The position numbers and the translations under genes were made by a program. A stretch of 34,844 nt of DNA from an uncultured Sphingomonas sp. GTDB lineage: Bacteria; Pseudomonadota; Alphaproteobacteria; Sphingomonadales; Sphingomonadaceae. The notes under the pieces are model-generated. The model saw only the letters and a program-made list of their open reading frames with translations, did not search any database and had not been told where the DNA came from. Position 1 is the first letter of the stretch; each line of letters opens with the position of its first letter. Shown in pieces: positions 4,464 to 15,022 of this stretch. The stretch covers positions 1 to 34,844 of the forward strand of contig CAMPIY010000003.1 in assembly GCA_946886645.1 (NCBI GenBank). The letters are read 5' to 3'.

Positions 4464-5423
4464 ATGCTCGTGCGTTTCTGGGGTACTCGAGGATCGCTTC
4501 CGGTTGCGCCGACCGCCGATACCATTCGGCAGAAAGTCGTTCGTGCTGTCATGGCTGCCAATGGGAAACGGTTCGCGGATGCGGCCGAGGCGGAGAGTTT
4601 CGTCAGCGAACTCGGGTTTGCCGCCGGCGCCACCTATGGCGGCGCAACGCCTTGCGTCGAGCTTGAGGCGGGGCAGGGCACCTATTTCATTTGCGACATG
4701 GGAAGTGGGCTTAGACAGTTCGGACTGGATTCGATCCGGCGAAACGCTGAAGGCCACCGCAAAACCTACAATTTCTTCCTGTCCCACCTGCACTGGGACC
4801 ATATCATGGGCTTCCCCTTCTTCGCGCCGGCGTTCGATCCGACGGCAACGATCAGAATTCATTCGGCGCACCCGGACGCCGAGGATGCGCTTCGGCGCCA
4901 GCAGGAGGAGATCAGCTTTCCTGTGCCGTTCGACTGGCTGCGCGCCGACATCCAGTTCGTGCAACTCACCCCAGGCGAGCCTTACGAAGTCGACGGTGTG
5001 CAGGTCGAAACCGCGCGGCAGCAACACTCCCACGTCAGTTACGGCTACCGCTTCACGGATCGCGACGGGCGAACGGCGATCTACAGCACCGACAGCGAGC
5101 ATAAGCCGGACAATATGGAGGACGAGGCAAGTTTCATCCGCTTCTTCCGCGACGCCGACCTCGTGATCTGCGACACCATGTATTCGCTGGCCGACAGCGT
5201 TTCGATGAAGGAAGACTGGGGCCATTCCAGCAACCTGGTGGCGATCGACCTTTGTCACGAAGCGCAGGCGAAGTGCCTGGCGCTATTCCACCATGAACCC
5301 ACCTATCAGGATGAGGACATCCAGCGGATGCACGAGGAAAGCATCCGCTATGAGGAACTGACCAGGAACGGCCCGCCGCTCGAAGTGATTTGCGCTTATG
5401 ACGGGCTCGAAGTCCGGCTCTAG
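4464..5423 (+). CDS. MBL-fold metallohydrolase, PhnP/cyclic-phosphodiesterase-like group
   Basis: This 319-residue metallo-beta-lactamase-fold enzyme carries the metal motif HLHWDH (H108, H110, D112, H113), further ligands at about H190 and D210 (YSTDSEH), and a late His pair (H276-H277). The N-terminal 'RFWGTRGSLPVAP' and 'ATYGGATPCVEL' segments match the MBL branch that includes PhnP and related phosphodiesterases rather than lactamases. An insertion at about 23-55 precedes the TYGG segment. Expected chemistry is hydrolysis of a phosphodiester or cyclic phosphate with two divalent metals, in the cytoplasm since there is no signal peptide. It begins 29 bases after the STAS gene with AGCGGAGGGG upstream, and its last 26 bases overlap the next gene. 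The substrate is unknown; a cyclic nucleotide is possible because a class III cyclase lies at 13256-15022. Confidence 0.85.
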   Translation: MLVRFWGTRGSLPVAPTADTIRQKVVRAVMAANGKRFADAAEAESFVSELGFAAGATYGGATPCVELEAGQGTYFICDMGSGLRQFGLDSIRRNAEGHRKTYNFFLSHLHWDHIMGFPFFAPAFDPTATIRIHSAHPDAEDALRRQQEEISFPVPFDWLRADIQFVQLTPGEPYEVDGVQVETARQQHSHVSYGYRFTDRDGRTAIYSTDSEHKPDNMEDEASFIRFFRDADLVICDTMYSLADSVSMKEDWGHSSNLVAIDLCHEAQAKCLALFHHEPTYQDEDIQRMHEESIRYEELTRNGPPLEVICAYDGLEVRL

Positions 5424-7464
5424 GCCCAGACGCCCCGGCCGCCGTGTCGTCGCGACGTGGTTGGCGGGCACGCTGATCGCCGTCCTGCTCAGCCTGCTTC
5501 TTGGCGAGCGGATGCGGAACACGGTGTTCGACAGCTGGCAGGCGGCGAGCCCGCGCGACCTCTCCGCGACCGATGTCCGGGTGGTGATGATCGACAATCA
5601 GAGCATCGCGGCGGTCGGTCCCTGGCCGTGGCCGCGTTACTATCTCGCCCGCCTTACGGAAGAGCTGAACAATCGCGGCGCCAAGGTTATCGCGTTCGAT
5701 ATCCTCCTGTCGGAACAGGACCGCGTCAGGCCGGAAACTTTCGTGTCGCTCTATCCCGAGCTCAGCAAGGAAGCTGCGGCCGAAGTCCAGGCACTTGAGC
5801 CGATGGACGAGCTTTTCGGCAAGGTCATCGGCGCCTCGCCGGTGGTATTGGCGCACGCAGGCACGGGGGAAGTTCAGCAGACCGAGCCCGTGCTGATCGA
5901 TGCGCCGATAATCGGCGCGCTCCCGCCCGAGGTGGATGGCTGGCGGGGCGAGCTTGGGGCCATCCCGGTCCTGGACGATGTCGCCCTCGGTCATGGGCTG
6001 GCCAATGGCAAGCCAGACCCGGACGGCGTCACGCGCAGTATTCCACTGGTCATGCGCGCGGCAGGCAAACCGCGTCCGGGGTTCGCGCTTGAAGTCGCCC
6101 GCCTTACCGCCGGCGCCGATCAAATCCGAACATCGCCGGCCGCCGTCCAATTCGACGGACGGACCATTCCGGTCAACCGGCACGGGCATATGCTTTTGCG
6201 CTTCGGCAGCTTCCCGAGAGAAAAAATTACCTCGGCGGGGGACGTGATCGGAAGATATGACCTGAAGGGCGACGAATTCGCCGGAAAGCCGGTCGTTATC
6301 GGGATGCAGGCGGAGGGCACGTCCGACATTGCGGCGACCCCGATCGCCGCCGAAGAATTCGGTCCGCTGATCCAGGCCCAGGCCATCGATGCCATGCTTC
6401 GCGGCGGCTGGCTTGAGCGGCCGGGTTGGGCCCCGCCGATGGAATGGGCCGCGGGCGGACTGCTGGCGATGCTTGCGCTCGGCAATGCGCTGTTCGGGCG
6501 AACCTACCGGATCGCGCTCGGTGTCGTCTTCATTGCCGTGCCGGTCATCGCTTGGCTCGCTTTTTTGAGAGGCTCGATCCTGTTCGACCCCGCACGACCG
6601 ATGCTTATTGGCGGCGGAGCGGTCGCTGGCGTCGCCATTGCCCTGTTTGCTTTGGCGAGGATCGACCGCGAACGACTTCGGGAGGCATTGATCCAGGAGC
6701 GGGTCGCCGCCGCAGCGACGGAAGGCGAGCTTCAGGCGGCCCGGTCAATCCAGCTCGGTATGGTCCCGCCGCGGGAGCGGCTGCGCGGCATCGACCCGCG
6801 CGTGGATGTCGATGCGCTGCTGGAGCCCGCCCGGTCGATCGGCGGCGATTTCTACGATGCGGTGAAGATCGGGCAAGACCATCTCGCGCTCGCCATCGCG
6901 GACGTGACGGGGAAGGGGGTGCCCGCGGCCCTGTTCATGGCGATGTCGAAGGCGTTGACGGGCACGGCTCTTGCCAGGAACGCAACCGACCCGGCCGCCA
7001 TCGCCGCCACGATCAACGAAGACCTATTGAACGACTATGGCGAGGCGATGAGCGTAACGATGCTGCTCGCCATCCTGGACCTCAAATCGGGTGAGGTTCG
7101 CGCGGTTTGCGCCGGTCACGAGGATCCGATCATCGTATCGGCCGACGGCAATGCGGATCGGGTCCGGCTCGACGGAGGCCCGCCATTCTCCGTGGTCGAT
7201 TTCACCTACCCGACCGAAACGCTGAGGCTGGCGCCTGGCGAAACGCTGGTGCTGGTCACCGATGGCGTGACCGAAGCCCAGAATTCCGAAGGAGCGCTGT
7301 TCGGCGGCAACCGCCTCCTCGCCGGCAAGGCGCTGAAGGCCGGCAGCGCGAGCGCCATATGCGATGCCATTCAGGATGAAGTCAGGCGTTTCGAAGATGG
7401 CGCCGAGGCGACCGACGACTTGACGGTGATGGTCGTGCGCTATCTGGGCACTAGCGGACGATAA
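5398..7464 (+). CDS. CHASE2 sensor - SpoIIE/RsbU-type Ser/Thr phosphatase
   Basis: This 688-residue membrane receptor has one helix at about 17-35, an extracytoplasmic CHASE2 domain at about 45-335 (including 'VRVVMIDNQSI' and 'GDEFAGKPVVIGMQ'), three closely spaced helices at about 350-366, 371-390 and 402-420, a short helical linker, and a C-terminal PP2C-type SpoIIE domain from about 480. The metal sites are intact: GGDFYD (D484), ADVTGKGVPAALF (D502), TDGVTEA and the final TDDLT. It should dephosphorylate a STAS antagonist in response to a periplasmic signal, and the STAS gene at 4099 is the obvious partner. The start at 5398 lies within the MBL gene, a translation-coupled arrangement, and no strong Shine-Dalgarno is visible. 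The end overlaps the convergent OmpA-like gene by 14 bases. Confidence 0.9.
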   Translation: MTGSKSGSRPRRPGRRVVATWLAGTLIAVLLSLLLGERMRNTVFDSWQAASPRDLSATDVRVVMIDNQSIAAVGPWPWPRYYLARLTEELNNRGAKVIAFDILLSEQDRVRPETFVSLYPELSKEAAAEVQALEPMDELFGKVIGASPVVLAHAGTGEVQQTEPVLIDAPIIGALPPEVDGWRGELGAIPVLDDVALGHGLANGKPDPDGVTRSIPLVMRAAGKPRPGFALEVARLTAGADQIRTSPAAVQFDGRTIPVNRHGHMLLRFGSFPREKITSAGDVIGRYDLKGDEFAGKPVVIGMQAEGTSDIAATPIAAEEFGPLIQAQAIDAMLRGGWLERPGWAPPMEWAAGGLLAMLALGNALFGRTYRIALGVVFIAVPVIAWLAFLRGSILFDPARPMLIGGGAVAGVAIALFALARIDRERLREALIQERVAAAATEGELQAARSIQLGMVPPRERLRGIDPRVDVDALLEPARSIGGDFYDAVKIGQDHLALAIADVTGKGVPAALFMAMSKALTGTALARNATDPAAIAATINEDLLNDYGEAMSVTMLLAILDLKSGEVRAVCAGHEDPIIVSADGNADRVRLDGGPPFSVVDFTYPTETLRLAPGETLVLVTDGVTEAQNSEGALFGGNRLLAGKALKAGSASAICDAIQDEVRRFEDGAEATDDLTVMVVRYLGTSGR

Positions 7465-8038
7465 CCTCGACCCGGCGGTTGGCCGGGTTGTCGACATTGT
7501 CCATCGTCGGCTGCATCAGCTGCCGCTCACCGCGCCCGACCGCGCTCATCATCGACCGGTCGAATCCCTGGGAGGCAAGCCAGGTTAACACTTCCTCCGC
7601 GCGCTTGGCCGACAGCTGGTCGTTATCCGCTTCGCTCCCGACTGTATCGGTATGACCGATCACCTCTACTTCAGGGCCGGACCTTCCTGCGATTTCGGCA
7701 CGGAGCGCCGTCAGCACGTCGGCCGACTGCGGCGTCAATGTCGTGGTTCCTTGCTCGAAATAGAGAAGGAAGCTTTTCGCCGGCGGAGGCAGGCCCGTCA
7801 GAAGTGCGGCTTCCTGCTTCTTGAGCCCGTCGGGTCCCAGCGGTTTCGCCGCCGGGTTCCTCGTGCCGAGCTTGGTGCGGCTATTCCCCTCGGCAATAAC
7901 TGCGTCGGTCGGAGCGCCGCCCGACTCAAGCACTGCCACCGCGCCTTGATGGCCCTCATCATCGGGCAGGAGGACCAGCGACGATGTCGCGCAGCCGCCG
8001 AGGGTGATGATGAAGATGGTCAGGCCGACGCGGATCAT
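7451..8038 (-). CDS. OmpA-family peptidoglycan-associated lipoprotein
   Basis: This 195-residue protein has a lipoprotein signal with lipobox LGGC (acylated C16) and a C-terminal OmpA-like peptidoglycan-binding domain at about 90-195. Diagnostic segments are 'YFEQGTTTLTPQSADVL', 'VEVIGHTDTVGSEADN', 'LSAKRAEEVLTWL' and 'NPANRRVEVIV', including the D and R that hold diaminopimelate. It should be held in a membrane by its lipid and grip the cell wall through the OmpA domain. Residues 20-90 form a linker with no recognised domain. Its start overlaps the end of the FecR gene (ATGA), so the two are translated together. Position inside the signalling island suggests a structural or sensing role at the envelope. 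The two C-terminal ends of this gene and the CHASE2 phosphatase gene overlap. Confidence 0.88.
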   Translation of the reverse strand: MIRVGLTIFIITLGGCATSSLVLLPDDEGHQGAVAVLESGGAPTDAVIAEGNSRTKLGTRNPAAKPLGPDGLKKQEAALLTGLPPPAKSFLLYFEQGTTTLTPQSADVLTALRAEIAGRSGPEVEVIGHTDTVGSEADNDQLSAKRAEEVLTWLASQGFDRSMMSAVGRGERQLMQPTMDNVDNPANRRVEVIVR

Positions 8039-8469
8039 TTTGGAACCGCGACAATGAACTTGGTGCCGCGAACGCCAAGCAGGCTGTTCGGCGTCCGGAC
8101 CTTCATGGCGTCGCGGTCGGATTTCGCGATCCTGCCCGACACGATGGCCAGCGACCCGCGGTCGACCTTTGTGACGAAGGAGCCTTTTTGCCGCGTCCGG
8201 TCATATTGGAATTCGCTGACGGAAACCCGGCTGTTGGGGCCAACAGCGAAGCGGGTGTTGTCGATGAAGGTCAGGCTCATCCGCCCGTCCTTGCCGGTCA
8301 CGAGGCGGTCGCCGGCCAGCAATTGCAAACCAGGCGCCGCCTTGAGTCGTTGGGTGTTGCGTTCCACCAGCGCCGATCCGCTACTTTGCTTGATCCGCGC
8401 GATTTCCGCGGCGACGGGCGATGCGGCGAAGAGGGCAACAGCACCAAGGGCCAAGGGCAAGCGAAGCAT
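8035..8469 (-). CDS. Secreted FecR-domain protein
   Basis: This 144-residue protein has a clear Sec signal peptide (cleavage about 21, PVAAE) followed by a single FecR domain. Typical segments are 'GSALVERNTQRLKAAPG', 'LAGDRLVTGKDGRMSLTFID', 'TRFAVGPNSRVSVSEFQYD', 'RGSLAIVSGRIAK' and 'VRTPNSLLGVRGTKFIV'. The FecR of iron transport is an inner-membrane anti-sigma regulator; this one is only the periplasmic domain, with no transmembrane helix or cytoplasmic tail, so it belongs to the stand-alone FecR group often found beside CHASE2 or OmpA genes. GGGAG precedes the ATG. It is followed by the OmpA-like lipoprotein with an ATGA overlap, and its start is 44 bases from the divergent ATPase gene. 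It probably passes an envelope signal to a membrane receptor such as the CHASE2 protein; that link is inference. Confidence 0.87.
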   Translation of the reverse strand: MLRLPLALGAVALFAASPVAAEIARIKQSSGSALVERNTQRLKAAPGLQLLAGDRLVTGKDGRMSLTFIDNTRFAVGPNSRVSVSEFQYDRTRQKGSFVTKVDRGSLAIVSGRIAKSDRDAMKVRTPNSLLGVRGTKFIVAVPK

Positions 8470-8513
8470 GGCGGGTCTCCCAACCGTTTCGGTAACGTGA
8501 CATAGCGAATCCG

Positions 8514-8933
8514 ATGGGCACGCGCGACTCCGATTTGGATCGTATTACCCGCCGGGTGCGGGGCAGGGACGCCGTGACCCTGGCATCCGATGCCGCGCGG
8601 GAATTCGGAAATGCGCAATGGCTCGCGGGCGAAGAACTGGCTCGGCTGTGCATTGTGATCGAGGAGCTTGTCGCCAACCTCTATGATCATGGCGGTCTGG
8701 CCGAGCATGACGAAGTGGAAGTGACTCTGAGCAGCGAGGCCGACGGGATTGGCGTGGTCCTGATCGATCCCGGAGTGCCGTTCGATCCCTGGGAAGCGCC
8801 ACGGCCGGTCGAGATGCCCGATCGCGGGGGAGGGGCCGGCATCGGGATTGTTCGAGCATGGGCGCAGTTGGTCGATTACCGCGTTACGGACCAGGGCAAC
8901 CGGCTGGAACTCCTTCTCCCGCTCCATTGGTAG
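8514..8933 (+). CDS. RsbW-like anti-sigma ATPase (GHKL fold serine kinase)
   Basis: This 139-residue protein is a single HATPase_c domain of the RsbW/SpoIIAB type. The N-box is 'IEELVANLYDHG' (N55 should bind magnesium), the G1 box is 'DPGVPFDP' (D85, G87) and the G2 box is 'GGGAGIGIVRAW' (105-116). Such proteins phosphorylate STAS antagonists and also hold a sigma factor or other target until the antagonist displaces them. Its expected partner is the STAS protein at 4099. No sigma factor gene lies nearby, so the protein it restrains cannot be named from this window. No Shine-Dalgarno is visible before ATG 8514, and an inverted repeat (ACCG-TTT-CGGT, 8483-8493) lies in the 44-base spacer shared with the FecR gene. 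It ends 9 bases from the convergent PP2C gene. Confidence 0.87.
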   Translation: MGTRDSDLDRITRRVRGRDAVTLASDAAREFGNAQWLAGEELARLCIVIEELVANLYDHGGLAEHDEVEVTLSSEADGIGVVLIDPGVPFDPWEAPRPVEMPDRGGGAGIGIVRAWAQLVDYRVTDQGNRLELLLPLHW

Positions 8934-9760: not shown

Positions 9761-12046
9761 GTGAGCAAGGCGTACAGCAACAAGGCGTTGCCCGCGGGGA
9801 CGATCATCCGCGAATGGCGGTTGGAAGACGTTCTCGGCGTTGGGGGGTTCGGCATCGTCTACAAGGGTCGCGGAATCTACTTCGGCGAACTTGTTGCGAT
9901 TAAAGAATATTTCCCCAGTGCGATCAGCGAGCGCGATGCCGAGGACACGGTCGTTCCGATCGGCTCGGACGTCGAAGAGGTCCATGCTCTCGGGCTGAAG
10001 AAATTCGTCGAAGAGGCGAAGCTGCTGTGGAACCTGTCGACGCCGACGCGGCATCCCAACATCGTCAGCGTCCGCGCGCTCTTCGAGATCCACGGCACCG
10101 CCTACATGGTGATGGACTTCGAGGACGGAGTCTCCCTTTCCAAGCTGTTGAAAGAGGGCAGGCGCTTCAATGAGCGCAGCCTGTGGAACATCATCAAGCC
10201 GATCGCCGAGGGTCTCGACCGGGCCCATCGCGTCGGTGTGCTCCACCGCGATATCAAGCCGCCGAATATCCTGATCAACGACGACAATCGTCCGGTCCTG
10301 ATCGATTTCGGCTCGGCCCGCTTTGAGGCCGCGGAGGCGACGAGCACGTCCGTAACGTTCCACACGCCGCCTTACGCGGCGGTCGAGCAATATGTGAAAA
10401 CCTACGACCAAGGACCGTGGACGGACATTTACGCGCTTTCGGTCGTCATGTTCGAATGCGTGACTGGCGAGAAGCCGCCGGAGGTGCTCGAGCGGCTGCA
10501 TGGCGGATTGGGAACGGCGCTGGCGGATGGACATTGGCCGGGCTTCAGCAAGAAATTTTTGCAGGCGATCGACGCCGGCATGACCATCCGGCCGGACGAA
10601 CGGCCGCAGTCGATCCGCGACTGGCTCACGATGTTCGGCAAGAAGGACGAGCTGGACGTTGCTGGCGGAGAAGACGAGGCGACGCGCTTCTTCGCGCATG
10701 AAGTGGCGACCGACGGGATCATCCCGGTCGCGACGCCGACTTCCGGCTTTGAACAGGAAACGCTGGAAACCGGTGTCCCGACAGACCCGCGCGAGGTAAA
10801 GTTCAAGCGCGCCGGGCAGGAAACCAAGACTTCGAAAAAGAAGAAGCTCGAGGCGATCGATCCCGACGAAATTGCCAAGGCGGTCGAGCAGGAACTTCCG
10901 CCTCCAGCAATCGAGCCAGAGGCCGTGCCGGAGGACAGAAAGGCCGCGGCGCTATTGGACGTGCCCAAGGTCGAGCCGGAGAAAAAAGCGCCCGCAGCCA
11001 AGGCGAAGCAGGATGCGAAGGGTGATGCGCCACCCTGGTACAAGCAGCCGCGCGTGGCGGCGCTGGGGGGCGCGGGCGGCGTGCTTGCCGTAATCGCGGG
11101 GGCATTCGTCGTCTTCGGGGGCGGTTCGAATAGCAACGAAGGTTATGACGCCATTCCCGCGCTGACCGAATCCGGCCCGATCCCGGTCGAGATGACCGAC
11201 ATTGTCGCGATCGCGGCGGATGAGCGGGCGCTGGCCGGTGAAGCGAAGGCGGCCGGCGCGCCGGCCACCGCGGTGAACGGACTTGTCGCGGCCGGTGAGC
11301 AGTTGGACAAGCAGCTGGTCGAGCTTCGTTCCCTTCTCGACGATCCCGCGCAGTCGGCGACGGCAACCGCGCGGACGGACGAGATGAAGCGTGCGGCCAC
11401 CGCCGCAAACATCGAATTCGCGAATGCCCTTTTGCGTGATGCGGAGGCGCGCGCCCAACGATTGCCCACCGCGGCTTCAGCCAGCGCAGCCGGGCGTAGC
11501 GTGGCCGCGGCGCTGTCCGATTTGCGCGGCTCGGTCCAGGCATCGTCAAGCGCCACGGACCCCGTGCGATCGCTTGCCGCGGCGCGCGATGCGCTAGCCA
11601 AGTCGCAGGCGTTTGCCGCAGCGCTTCCAGCGGCTTCGGCAAGCGCGCAAATCGCCAGCAAGAAGACGGATGACCGGCTTACCAATGCCGCCACTCCGAC
11701 GAGCACACGGCCGACAACGACCGTCGTTCAAACCCCCGTCGCCACGACCGCGGCGCCTGCCGCAACCGCGTCAGCTGCGCCGTCGGCCTCGAAAATCGCG
11801 CAAATCCGGTCGATCATCTCGAACGGCCGGAGTCGTGCGAAACAGGTCATCGCGATGGGTTCGGGTGGATCGGCAACGCAGAAGGCAAACGCCAAGCTCG
11901 CCAAAGGCTACGAGAACTATTTCGCCAACCTGTCGGACTCCCTGCGCGGCGCAAGAACCGATCGGGAACTCGACCAGCTGTTGAAGCAGGCCAACCAGAC
12001 CAAGGCCTATGTAGACTTCCTCTACAAGCAGTCGTCGAGCAGTTAG
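9761..12046 (+). CDS. Transmembrane Hanks-type Ser/Thr protein kinase with Ala-rich extracytoplasmic tail
   Basis: This 761-residue protein has an N-terminal kinase domain (about 20-290) with glycine loop LGVGGFG (25-31), ATP lysine VAIKEY (K48), catalytic loop HRDIKPPN (D164, N169) and IDFG (D182): a complete, active-looking RD kinase. Residues about 290-425 are a charged, Pro/Lys/Glu-rich linker. A transmembrane helix at about 432-455 ('GGVLAVIAGAFVVFGGG') leads to about 300 extracytoplasmic residues, very rich in Ala, Ser and Thr with helical, coiled-coil-like stretches and no recognised ligand domain. The start is GTG 9761, preceded by AAGGAAA. Its end is 18 bases from the end of the convergent TIR-FHA gene. 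Likely role: sense an envelope state and phosphorylate Thr residues that an FHA domain can read. The neighbouring PP2C is the likely antagonist. Confidence 0.93.
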   Translation: MSKAYSNKALPAGTIIREWRLEDVLGVGGFGIVYKGRGIYFGELVAIKEYFPSAISERDAEDTVVPIGSDVEEVHALGLKKFVEEAKLLWNLSTPTRHPNIVSVRALFEIHGTAYMVMDFEDGVSLSKLLKEGRRFNERSLWNIIKPIAEGLDRAHRVGVLHRDIKPPNILINDDNRPVLIDFGSARFEAAEATSTSVTFHTPPYAAVEQYVKTYDQGPWTDIYALSVVMFECVTGEKPPEVLERLHGGLGTALADGHWPGFSKKFLQAIDAGMTIRPDERPQSIRDWLTMFGKKDELDVAGGEDEATRFFAHEVATDGIIPVATPTSGFEQETLETGVPTDPREVKFKRAGQETKTSKKKKLEAIDPDEIAKAVEQELPPPAIEPEAVPEDRKAAALLDVPKVEPEKKAPAAKAKQDAKGDAPPWYKQPRVAALGGAGGVLAVIAGAFVVFGGGSNSNEGYDAIPALTESGPIPVEMTDIVAIAADERALAGEAKAAGAPATAVNGLVAAGEQLDKQLVELRSLLDDPAQSATATARTDEMKRAATAANIEFANALLRDAEARAQRLPTAASASAAGRSVAAALSDLRGSVQASSSATDPVRSLAAARDALAKSQAFAAALPAASASAQIASKKTDDRLTNAATPTSTRPTTTVVQTPVATTAAPAATASAAPSASKIAQIRSIISNGRSRAKQVIAMGSGGSATQKANAKLAKGYENYFANLSDSLRGARTDRELDQLLKQANQTKAYVDFLYKQSSSS

Positions 12047-12099
12047 GCCGCCCGGCCGTGGGTGTTATGACTTGGCGGCGCGGGCCGCGCCCGGGCGGC
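12047..12099. repeat. 9-bp inverted repeat at the kinase/TIR-FHA convergent junction
   Basis: GCCGCCCGG (12047-12055) directly after the kinase stop is exactly complementary to CCGGGCGGC (12091-12099), inside the 3' end of the convergent TIR-FHA gene. The 35-base loop is long and no U-tract follows, so it is a weak terminator candidate. It may instead reflect Arg/Gly/Ala codon bias in the TIR-FHA tail. Confidence 0.3.
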
Positions 12100-13057
12100 G
12101 GTCGTGCGCGAAACGCAGGAGCTTCGCATGTTCCTGTTCGGCGCGATCGCTGACTTCATGTTCGAACAGCACATTGCCGACGCGAAGGACTGACCCGACG
12201 GGCAGCATCTCGCTTCCCTCGATCCGCTTGTTGTCGATGAATGTGCCGTTGGTTGAGTTTAGGTCCGTGACGCGCAACTTGTCTCCGGACAGTTCGACCT
12301 TGCAATGGGAACGCGATACCGCGGATCCGCTGACAATGATGTCGGCCGGCGGCAACCGGCCAATGGTGAGGCCGGCGGGCGTGATAACGAACCGGGTCTC
12401 CGGCAGGGAGTCATCGAGCCGCTGGAGGCAATGATAGCGATCGCCTTCCTGCATTCGCTGCACATCGGATGCGTGGAAGAACTGGGTCATCTCCTCTTCC
12501 TGTCCGGTCGGGTCCAACAGGCTGGGGCCGCGCGGCTTCGCGATCCGCTCCAGCGCGCGGATCAGCTCGTCATCCTCCGCCCTGCGTCCCTTGGCCGGGG
12601 CCGCCGCGGGTTCTTTCGGAGCCTCCGCCTTTTTGGGTTCGGCAGGTGCCGCTTCTTCGCTGTTCCCAACCAGCCGGCGCAAGTCGCTGACCAGCGTCTG
12701 CCAGGCGGGATCCGACGTATCGCCGGACCATTTCGACAAATCGGCGGCATGGGTCAGCTCGAAGATGATGGGAAGGTCGCACCTTTCGATGATGACCGGA
12801 ACCAGCTTGTTGCCCCGATCGGCAAGCGTGGCTTCTGCCCGTACCCAGCGCGAGGTTACGGAGCGCGGCGACCACAGGACGACGGCGGCCTTGGCGGCCC
12901 TCAATTCCTTTTCGATGACCTCGTCGAAGGTCTGGCCCGAGCGAAGAACGGCATCCCACCAAACGCTGAATCCTTCGCGCGCAAAGCATTCGGCGAAATG
13001 CTTCGCGGCGGACCGTTCCTCCCGGCAGTAGGAAATGAAGATGTCGTTACCGGTCAC
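12065..13057 (-). CDS. TIR-FHA fusion protein with intact TIR catalytic motif
   Basis: From GTG 13057 the protein has 330 residues. Residues 4-130 form a TIR domain: it opens with NDIFISYC, continues with GFSVWWDAVLRSG, and carries S-R-W-V-R-A-E (S69, W71, E75), matching the SxWxxxE motif whose glutamate is catalytic in TIR NADases. A Pro/Ala/Lys/Glu linker (133-165) leads to a C-terminal FHA domain (about 220-305) with GR (233-234), SRSH (S248, H251) and NSTNGT (267-272), the residues that bind phosphothreonine. The start is preceded by GGGGGATTT; the frame is open to an ATG at 13123, but the 22 extra residues have no good ribosome site and are not TIR-like. The gene is convergent with the Ser/Thr kinase. 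Likely role: a TIR effector or scaffold recruited or gated by phosphothreonine. NAD+ cleavage is inferred, not shown. Confidence 0.9.
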   Translation of the reverse strand: MTGNDIFISYCREERSAAKHFAECFAREGFSVWWDAVLRSGQTFDEVIEKELRAAKAAVVLWSPRSVTSRWVRAEATLADRGNKLVPVIIERCDLPIIFELTHAADLSKWSGDTSDPAWQTLVSDLRRLVGNSEEAAPAEPKKAEAPKEPAAAPAKGRRAEDDELIRALERIAKPRGPSLLDPTGQEEEMTQFFHASDVQRMQEGDRYHCLQRLDDSLPETRFVITPAGLTIGRLPPADIIVSGSAVSRSHCKVELSGDKLRVTDLNSTNGTFIDNKRIEGSEMLPVGSVLRVGNVLFEHEVSDRAEQEHAKLLRFAHDRRPGAARAAKS

Positions 13058-13255: not shown

Positions 13256-15022
13256 CTATTCGTTGCCGGTTCCAAGCCGGTAGAGGATGCGAACGCCATA
13301 ATTTTTGGCGAGATCCATCTTCCCAACATATTCAAAATGATAGTCGTTGCGTCCGGACTCGATCATCGCAGCGAAGGGCTGGGTGGTGTAGATGGCGCCG
13401 ACCGGGACCCTCGGCTCGATGCGCGCCGCGACCGTGACTTCCGTTCCGTAAAAAGTCCTGCCGCTCTGCACGGCGTCGAAATGCGAGAAAATCGGCCCGT
13501 GGTGAAGGCTGATCCTCATGCCATCGCCCGCCGGAAGCCCGATTTCCTGGAGCGATTCAGGGTCGAGCTCGCCCTGGATTTCAAGCGCGATCTCGGCCGC
13601 CTGGGCGGGCGTTGTGATCACCGCATAGATAGCATCGCCCCAGCTGTTCCGCGCCAGGACCGCATCGCCATGCCGGTCGAGGATTGCTGCGATCCGGCCC
13701 ATGACGGTTTCCAGAAAATGGGACAAATGCTCTTCGTCGAGCCGCGAAAAGCCTGCGAAATCGGCGAACAGGATGGAGTGCAGCGCCCAACGCGGCTTGG
13801 AATGGGTTTCGAGCACCATGGCGGCGTCGAGCGGCGGGCGCTCTGCCGGAATTGGGACGATCCGCGTCTTGCCGCCCTGTCTCGCCCATTCGGCGCAATC
13901 GGCGGCGGTGCCGGCGACCCCGCCGGCTGCCCGGCCGTCCCACACCGCCAGCTGAAATGCCTCGGTGTGCATGATCCCAGCGCGCAGTTGGGCAAGGCCC
14001 ATCACCAGCTTCGAGCAATAGGCGAAGAGCTCGTCGTCATCGACCGACTTCATCTGGGTGGCGAAGGTTATCGATGCGGCCTTGTCGCGCGTGGCGGCAT
14101 AGCGCGCTTCCCATTCCGGACCACCGACACGCACCGATGTGCGAAGGAAATCCTCTTCGGCGAAAGGAAGAACGACGTGGAGTTCACCGCCAAGCTCCAA
14201 AATTGCTTCGGCGATCAAAATATCGGCGCCGCAGGCGAGGGGGCCATAGGCGATCAAGGCGCCGGTTTCGGCGAGGATCGAACGGATCTGCTGGGTCAGT
14301 TCCGCCTCGTACATCCACCCGGCGCGGAACATATGGCCACAATAATGGATCACCGGGGACGGCCGGATCGCCGCCAGCAACCTGTCGATTTCAAGTTGCG
14401 GCGCGTCGAGTTGCTCTGCGATCAGCTTCACCTGGTGCGCGGTCGACGCGATCATGCCCTGCGAGGCGTCGGGCCGTTGGCTGGCGTCGGCATAAAGCGC
14501 GGTTGCCTTTGCAACCTTGCCACGCACCAGCATCGCCTCCGCGCCCGACGCGGCGGCGAAATAGCTTTCGGGTTGGGCCACGTCGGGCCGGCTGCTGATT
14601 GCCGTCGCGAGCTGATGCGCCTCGGCTACGTCACCCGCCAGGAAAGCGGTGGTCGCGGCGTTGATCCCGGAATAATAACCATCCGACAGTTCGTAGGCGG
14701 TGCGATAGGCCGCGCTGGCCTGGCGAAACATTTCGACCTGGCGCGGCCCGGTAACGCTAGCCGCCAAGTCCTTGAATATGCGGCCTTTCAGTGCAACCGC
14801 ATCTTCACCCCCGATTTCCTCGACGCGGTTGCGTTCGTACAGCCGTAGGGCCGCGTCCGGATCGCCCAGCCGGGCCATCGCCAAAGCTTGCAGGTAGCGG
14901 ACCTGTGGATCGTCGGGATATTTGCCGATTGCCTCCCTGGTCTGCTCGAACAACGCAAACATGTCCCCGCTGGCGAGGGCATCTGCGAAGCGCTGACGGA
15001 TATCGGGATCGATCGAGTCCAT
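13256..15022 (-). CDS. TRAFs-binding/TPR - SLOG-like - class III nucleotide cyclase protein
   Basis: This 588-residue cytoplasmic protein has three parts. Residues 1-220 are a helical region resembling the MAP3K TRAFs-binding (DUF4071) domain, with the 'SGINAATTAFLAGDVAEA' signature. Residues 222-390 look like a Rossmann-type SLOG/LOG-like nucleotide-binding domain ('YGPLACGADILIAEAILELG', 'LHVVLPFAEEDF'). Residues about 410-585 are a class III cyclase domain: metal Asp D421 (FADFAGFS) and D463 (GDAIY) and transition-state Arg R534 are present, but the usual Asn is T530 and the base-recognition pair (Lys/Asp for ATP, Glu/Cys for GTP) appears as N459/T523. The product is therefore uncertain. 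It lies 198 bases upstream of TIR-FHA on the same strand. The middle domain is the least certain assignment. Confidence 0.82.
   Translation of the reverse strand: MDSIDPDIRQRFADALASGDMFALFEQTREAIGKYPDDPQVRYLQALAMARLGDPDAALRLYERNRVEEIGGEDAVALKGRIFKDLAASVTGPRQVEMFRQASAAYRTAYELSDGYYSGINAATTAFLAGDVAEAHQLATAISSRPDVAQPESYFAAASGAEAMLVRGKVAKATALYADASQRPDASQGMIASTAHQVKLIAEQLDAPQLEIDRLLAAIRPSPVIHYCGHMFRAGWMYEAELTQQIRSILAETGALIAYGPLACGADILIAEAILELGGELHVVLPFAEEDFLRTSVRVGGPEWEARYAATRDKAASITFATQMKSVDDDELFAYCSKLVMGLAQLRAGIMHTEAFQLAVWDGRAAGGVAGTAADCAEWARQGGKTRIVPIPAERPPLDAAMVLETHSKPRWALHSILFADFAGFSRLDEEHLSHFLETVMGRIAAILDRHGDAVLARNSWGDAIYAVITTPAQAAEIALEIQGELDPESLQEIGLPAGDGMRISLHHGPIFSHFDAVQSGRTFYGTEVTVAARIEPRVPVGAIYTTQPFAAMIESGRNDYHFEYVGKMDLAKNYGVRILYRLGTGNE

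Follow-up and report, generated by a model that had tools for sequence, protein, structure and literature searches.

The window, by which we mean the whole stretch of 34,844 nucleotides that was analysed, carries on its reverse strand, at 12065..13057, a gene for a protein of 330 aa (P0001) in which a TIR domain is fused to an FHA domain (TIR-FHA). Its neighbours are a membrane Ser/Thr kinase (P0002, 9761..12046, forward strand), a PP2C Ser/Thr phosphatase (P0005, 8943..9656, reverse strand) and, upstream of TIR-FHA on the same strand, a protein that combines TPR-S, SLOG and class III cyclase-like domains (P0003, 13256..15022).

The TIR-FHA protein and its conserved residues

The fusion, which had been proposed by a reading of the sequence alone, is borne out by Pfam, in which both matches lie well over the cut-offs and far beyond chance level: the TIR_2 domain covers residues 6-121 (12695..13042, reverse strand; E 2.4e-21, 76.9 bits against a cut-off of 28) and the FHA domain residues 231-294 (12176..12367, reverse strand; E 1.6e-16, 60.9 bits against 20.7). 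Translation starts at a GTG at 13057, with a GGGGG stretch directly upstream, and this start site is common to 21 of 26 aligned rows; an alternative, longer ORF would encode 352 aa. Homologues are numerous (1928 proteins at E <= 1e-10, from 7996 scored candidates), and both domains were found in each of the best 120 of these 1928. An AlphaFold model of the whole protein was set aside, its mean pLDDT being 63.3 and its TIR half unreliable.

The comparisons described here are based on 28 TIR-FHA loci outside the window, namely those of 22 genomes of one genus (TIR-FHA was called at E <= 1e-60 in 22 of the 71 genomes searched), together with L007, L008, L010, L012, L013 and L122, the last being the TIR-FHA of genome G010 (which bears locus L030), entered separately. 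The window and 27 of these loci make up the 28-row alignment and tree, while genome G337, in which TIR-FHA is split by contig ends (L016 and L123), is included only in the locus count; L017-L077, which have TIR matches but not a complete match to TIR-FHA, were excluded from this count. The contig scan of relatives by peptide pattern covered the best 80 of 149 relatives, and two other protein homologue searches the best 120 of 655 and the best 120 of 379 matches.

The S-x-W-x-x-x-E motif of the TIR half had been assigned to S69, W71 and E75, and these positions are correct. The three residues are identical in 28 of 28 diverse rows (the window and 27 of the 28 loci) and in all 121 rows formed by the query and the best 120 of the 1928 homologues, so that a replacement of E75 in most close homologues, the outcome that had been named as speaking against a phosphothreonine-gated NADase, was looked for and the residue was found to be kept throughout. 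The codon of E75, the putative catalytic Glu, lies at 12833..12835 (reverse strand). Loci L001-L016 were found by two peptide patterns, one of which, RWVRAEAT, includes both W71 and E75, and for this reason their rows are no free test of these two residues; W71 and E75 are also kept in the 12 rows L111-L122, recruited by profile searches without that pattern.

When the TIR half alone was compared with the PDB as a single sequence, the sole matches at E <= 0.01 were 7uxr, 7uwg, 8g83 (AbTIR) and 3h16, and a profile of the whole family additionally matched a metazoan TIR-STING fusion. E75 aligns with the Glu of W-x-x-x-E in the three alignments displayed (7uxr, 7uwg and 8g83), and 7uwg is identical in the aligned stretch to 8g83, which is named AbTIR; we take 7uxr and 3h16 to be enzymes. 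In AbTir the catalytic Glu is E208, according to the part of PMC10022894 that was available. At the level of residues, the TIR domain of P0001 has the W-x-x-x-E that characterises an enzymatic TIR NADase, and it probably cleaves NAD. It could also be imagined as a non-catalytic scaffold, in which the TIR half would recruit TIR proteins homotypically and the FHA would take them to the kinase. Many TIR proteins per genome would indeed be at hand (the TIR-FHA profile has as many as 15 matches, the majority on the TIR half only), and scaffolding is given as the first-described TIR role in the portion of PMC11204291 available to us, but an invariant W71/E75 pair within a motif shared with enzymes is unexpected of a pure scaffold, and we consider this role quite unlikely.

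The FHA half had been described as keeping the residues needed for phosphothreonine binding (GR, SxxH and NxTNGT), and this is supported: G233, R234, S248, H251, S268, T269, N270 and G271 are present in 28 of 28 rows, T272 in 27 and N267 in only 14. Judged from these residues, the FHA of P0001 has the make-up of a phosphothreonine reader (G-R, S-x-x-H, N-G). A relationship to the FHA proteins of type VI secretion (TagH) was rejected, since the NCBIfam model VI_FHA gave 31 bits against a cut-off of 120.25.

The linker contains, at 12485..12487 (reverse strand), the codon of Thr191, a candidate phosphosite recognised in the alignments within an acidic-x-T-Q-F element, whose general form in TIR-FHA proteins is acidic-x-T-Q-hydrophobic. 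Among the close homologues (query and best 120 of 1928) this position is Thr in 99 of 121 and Ala in 22 of 121, and in the diverse set Thr occupies it in 19 of 28 rows and is absent from 9. In GarA and OdhI a phosphorylated Thr preceding the FHA is bound by that same FHA (PMC2784874, seen in part). Because of the nine rows without the linker Thr, such self-binding was rejected as a general mechanism of TIR-FHA and is only a possible addition to it.

Kinase, phosphatase and distribution of the cluster

The presence of a Ser/Thr kinase and a PP2C phosphatase next to TIR-FHA, as reported from the sequence alone, is supported by Pfam (Pkinase, E 1e-33, for P0002; PP2C, E 2.7e-15, for P0005, which scored 207.8 bits with the NCBIfam model Stp1_PP2C, under its cut-off of 230). 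By hydropathy, P0002 has one predicted transmembrane helix at residues 434-452, and the catalytic motifs of kinases of this type are present in 26 of 26 aligned rows. One Thr is invariant between the kinase domain and the membrane helix in all 26 kinases, in an acidic-x-T-[RKQ] setting: this is Thr308, whose codon is at 10682..10684 (forward strand) and which is a candidate docking site for the FHA. By eye, its equivalent was also recognised in the unlinked kinase orthologues L172 and L177.

The association with the kinase is stronger than had been claimed. Among the 28 loci, the kinase is linked to TIR-FHA in 25 and the phosphatase in 27; the kinase is unlinked in L011, where the contig ends nearby, and in L007 and L012, whose genomes have an orthologous kinase elsewhere, and in L010 the genes of the set stay together in a different order. 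In the 71 genomes of the genus, Hanks-type kinases (counted as PF00069 at E <= 1e-10) occur in 30, that is, in 22 of 22 genomes with TIR-FHA vs 8 of 49 without it (Fisher p 4.7e-12, a value inflated by the relatedness of the genomes, which are not independent). Exactly one such kinase is found in 21 of the 22 TIR-FHA genomes, the exception being G325 with two, and in 21 of the 22 a kinase lies within ~5 kb of TIR-FHA, whereas in G342 it is on another contig. FHA domains, counted at E <= 1e-5, are present in 23 of the 71 genomes (all 22 TIR-FHA genomes plus G341), and TIR-FHA is the sole FHA in 21 of the 22, a second one occurring in G325 (Fisher p 1.8e-17, again inflated by related genomes). 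As far as Hanks-type kinases are counted, the FHA has in most of these cells one candidate kinase, which is its neighbour. The FHA domain of G341, the one genome of the 71 with an FHA but no TIR-FHA match, is within a 674-aa frame; this genome also encodes a Hanks kinase, close to the end of a contig.

Among the genomes sampled, TIR-FHA looks clade-limited. A profile search over the class found it in 1 of 385 genomes at E <= 1e-66, namely the centre genome, with up to five candidates scored per genome, a depth at which divergent members may escape; over the order, a search with up to seven candidates scored gave 17 of 296 genomes at E <= 1e-60, in which TIR-FHA is mixed with other TIR proteins. 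At L021, L028, L035 and L045, three to five TIR paralogues are arranged in tandem within ~20 kb.

Genes for CHASE2-SpoIIE, OmpA, FecR and RsbW-like HATPase proteins adjoin the PP2C gene in the window (5398-8933) and are kept in L001 and L003; their position beside the cluster points to envelope signalling. The cassette might thus serve envelope or stress signalling instead of phage defence, a role compatible with the three-step circuit proposed below, and it is in line with the metabolic- or transport-like look of the remaining window genes covered by the Pfam scan. However, the close relatives L002, L111 and L123 are without the envelope-related genes in the fetched stretch, TIR-FHA is patchy (22 of 71 genomes) with flanking genes that mostly differ among L001-L016, and PADLOC, applied to five window proteins, matched defence models. 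In particular, the kinase matched the defence kinase models mad6 (E 5.7e-50) and PD-T4-6 (1.6e-42), the phosphatase matched PDC-M21C (9.8e-11) and the TIR gave weak matches to several defence models of TIR proteins (6.3e-9 and 33.7 bits at best). The kinase match may reflect generic kinase likeness, since with the NCBIfam model MAD6 it reached 117.9 against a cut-off of 460. Taken together, we regard a function in envelope or stress signalling as conceivable, on the doubtful side.

SLOG-domain partners

The sequence-only reading saw the kinase and the phosphatase of this neighbourhood and overlooked the SLOG-domain neighbour, one of which is carried by 21 of the 28 loci. In the window it is P0003, in which Pfam recognises a TPR-S domain (residues 21-124, 14651..14962; 5.3e-16) and a class III nucleotidyl cyclase-like domain (Guanylate_cyc, residues 416-572, 13307..13777; 3.2e-8), both on the reverse strand, as is the region between them that encodes about residues 221-395 (13838..14362). 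A confident structure model and its fold matches give this middle part the SLOG/DprA-LOG Rossmann fold and, together with profile comparison, identify it, as modelled, as a SLOG domain. An assignment from Pfam alone was dropped as too weak, the SLOG models of Pfam having matched 0 of 18 members of the P0003 family and, among SLOG-SLATT proteins, 1 of 22 with YpsA (at 0.027) and 1 of 22 with STALD (at 0.15). ThsA is absent among the 50 fold-search matches listed, which is no argument against kinship. The SLOG of the partner might itself be an enzyme. Class III cyclases usually have a transition-state Asn before the A-A-R motif, and residue 530 of P0003, at this place, is a Thr, invariant in 18 of 18 rows, which makes the cyclase activity uncertain.

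Across the loci the SLOG domain is found in two settings. Five partners are of the TPR-S-SLOG-cyclase type, 14 are SLOG-SLATT proteins encoded directly downstream and two are SLOG-SLATT proteins encoded nearby; by Pfam, the neighbour proteins match either TPR-S/cyclase or DUF4231 (SLATT-like). One of the 21 genes is truncated after its SLOG part (L011 of G342, 10707-11648), and at the remaining 7 of 28 loci the fetched stretch is without a SLOG gene; apart from L011, the members of its clade have lost the SLOG partner. The tree built from the 28 rows groups those with a P0003-type partner together (100/99), and the SLOG-SLATT partners are scattered across several branches and across families. 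This is most simply read as an exchange, in the clade of the window, of SLATT for TPR-S plus cyclase, with SLOG retained; the direction of this swap is inferred, because the root serves for drawing only and support at the deepest forks is low (88/91).

At the scale of the genus, full-length P0003-type genes are present in 5 of the 71 genomes, each adjoining TIR-FHA, and a sixth genome has a partial match only. SLOG-SLATT genes are more widespread (51 of 71 genomes): eight of them, at >= 890 bits, and the G342 fragment adjoin TIR-FHA and all others score <= 510, a gap that is due in part to construction, because the search profile was built mostly from proteins linked to TIR-FHA or closely similar to those. 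The genome-wide association of SLOG genes as a whole (22 of 22 genomes with TIR-FHA vs 32 of 49 without; Fisher p 7.6e-4, likewise inflated by related genomes) is weaker than that of the kinase and the FHA.

Twelve regions with lower-scoring SLOG-SLATT paralogues were fetched (L160-L171), and each of the 12 has, upstream within ~1.2 kb and in the same orientation, a gene that begins with a TIR and retains the W+4=E spacing; three of these genes were scanned with Pfam and have TIR plus TPR. These regions represent a second unit of TIR and SLOG-SLATT that has no FHA; in L161 the TIR gene is split over two ORFs and in L165 an ispG/gcpE gene lies beyond the SLOG-SLATT paralogue. Furthermore, a small K+-channel-like gene is found beside SLOG-SLATT, on the opposite strand, in L007, L008, L012, L013, L015, L116, L117, L119, L120 and L121, with a TLGxGD filter in the five that were read and Ion_trans_2 in the two scanned with Pfam.

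These partners bear on what the TIR half may do. If TIR-FHA were a phosphothreonine-gated NADase that merely depletes NAD+, the SLOG neighbours would be incidental; the invariant putative catalytic Glu and the 7 of 28 loci without a linked SLOG gene speak for this. Against it, 21 of the 28 clusters have a SLOG gene, the SLOG domain occurring in two kinds of fusion, and no full-length P0003-type gene was found away from TIR-FHA in the 71 genomes; depletion alone therefore appears unlikely to us. Given the SLOG-domain neighbour, a producer of a signal for a SLOG sensor is a better reading of TIR-FHA than a stand-alone NADase.

A proposed circuit and its comparison with known systems

To our knowledge, the way in which TIR enzymes are switched on has been described for few systems, mostly through oligomerisation or phage proteins. 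For TIR-FHA, the domains, residues, gene order, co-occurrence and SLOG fold were seen or computed directly; from them and from three precedents we infer the phosphorylation, docking, catalysis, product, sensing and output of a circuit. The precedents, each from a source seen in part, are that the assembly of TIR domains is required for TIR enzyme activity (PMC12847820), that the SLOG of ThsA binds the TIR-made 3'cADPR (PMC11204291) and that SLATT, found beside TIR genes, is predicted to be a membrane effector controlled by ADPr derivatives (PMC9503650, PMC7159879). With confidence just short of even, we propose TIR-FHA as the middle of three steps, in which phosphorylation by the kinase would lead, through the FHA, to a gated TIR signal made from NAD+ and this in turn to the SLOG partner. 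In the first step, the membrane Hanks-type kinase would autophosphorylate, with the invariant Thr308, which precedes the membrane helix, as the most likely site, and the PP2C phosphatase would undo this modification. The FHA would then dock on phosphorylated Thr308, causing the TIR domains to cluster and to assemble their active site, and the clustered TIR would convert NAD+ into an ADP-ribose-type signal with E75 as the catalytic Glu. In many relatives, a phosphorylated linker Thr could be bound by the protein's own FHA, as in GarA/OdhI, and would reset docking. Finally, the signal would be read by the SLOG domain of the neighbour, which in half of the loci seen is SLOG-SLATT, a membrane protein, and in the clade of the window is the TPR-S-SLOG-cyclase protein, so that the output could be at the membrane or through a cyclase.

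In general terms, this would be a second-messenger circuit that runs from TIR to SLOG and is set off by Ser/Thr phosphorylation. In the majority of the genomes seen, the sole Hanks kinase would address the only FHA, fused to TIR, and the NAD-derived product would be read by interchangeable SLOG outputs, either a membrane effector of the SLATT type or a cyclase relaying to a second nucleotide messenger; in this wider form we hold the idea tentatively, and somewhat on the lower side of even chances. If true, it would connect Hanks kinases to Thoeris-like signalling and would provide SLOG-SLATT proteins with a candidate source of their ligand, and the small, genetically isolated kinase-FHA-TIR-SLOG set would make the phospho-control of NAD-derived signalling directly testable. 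No description of the TIR-FHA fusion or of the kinase-to-TIR-to-SLOG wiring was found in our literature search, which mostly did not reach subscription papers. In the parts of PMC7159879 and PMC8195603 that were available, FHA and TIR are each given as an effector-type domain of conflict systems, and not as a fusion of the two, and a search for the fusion in the available text of the latter found none.

Several known systems share individual traits with this cluster. The catalytic Glu motif is common to AbTir and TIR-FHA and, in the part of the source available, SpbK has TIR assembly as its activation principle; unlike TIR-FHA, both have other sensor domains and no phosphothreonine reader. The TIR-SLATT neighbourhoods of Aravind and colleagues (PMC9503650, PMC7159879, both seen in part) likewise pair a TIR with an adjacent membrane protein of the SLATT type, for which a response to ADPr derivatives is predicted, but, in the portions seen, the TIR there is without FHA or kinase coupling, whereas here SLATT is fused to SLOG. 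GarA and OdhI, with their kinases PknB and PknG, resemble TIR-FHA in a close FHA sequence, in the coupling to a kinase and, in many members, in an acidic-Thr element before the FHA. TIR-FHA differs from them in carrying a TIR, in a linker Thr that is not general and in having a SLOG protein instead of a metabolic enzyme as neighbour, and P0001 scored 36.3 bits with the NCBIfam OdhI family model, under its cut-off of 200.

What the cluster shares with Thoeris is a TIR with W-x-x-x-E and, next to it, a protein containing SLOG, the two genes often being close together in the same orientation. Thoeris type I consists of the TIR protein ThsB and the SIR2-SLOG protein ThsA, and types II and IV have other effectors. 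Both halves of this arrangement can be traced here: E75 falls on the Glu of the AbTIR motif, placing a putative catalytic Glu in the TIR at residue level, and profile comparison, structure model and fold search place a SLOG in the partner. With library models of ThsB, P0001 remained under the cut-offs (Pfam ThsB_TIR, 20.1 bits against 21.2; NCBIfam ThcB4, 34.1 against 220) and reached at best 19.4 bits with the ThsB models of PADLOC, for which no cut-off is stated. A Pfam scan of the neighbour proteins gave no match to SIR2, Macro or caspase. Unlike in Thoeris, the SLOG is here fused to SLATT or to TPR-S plus a cyclase, and the TIR is joined to an FHA and linked to a kinase and a phosphatase.
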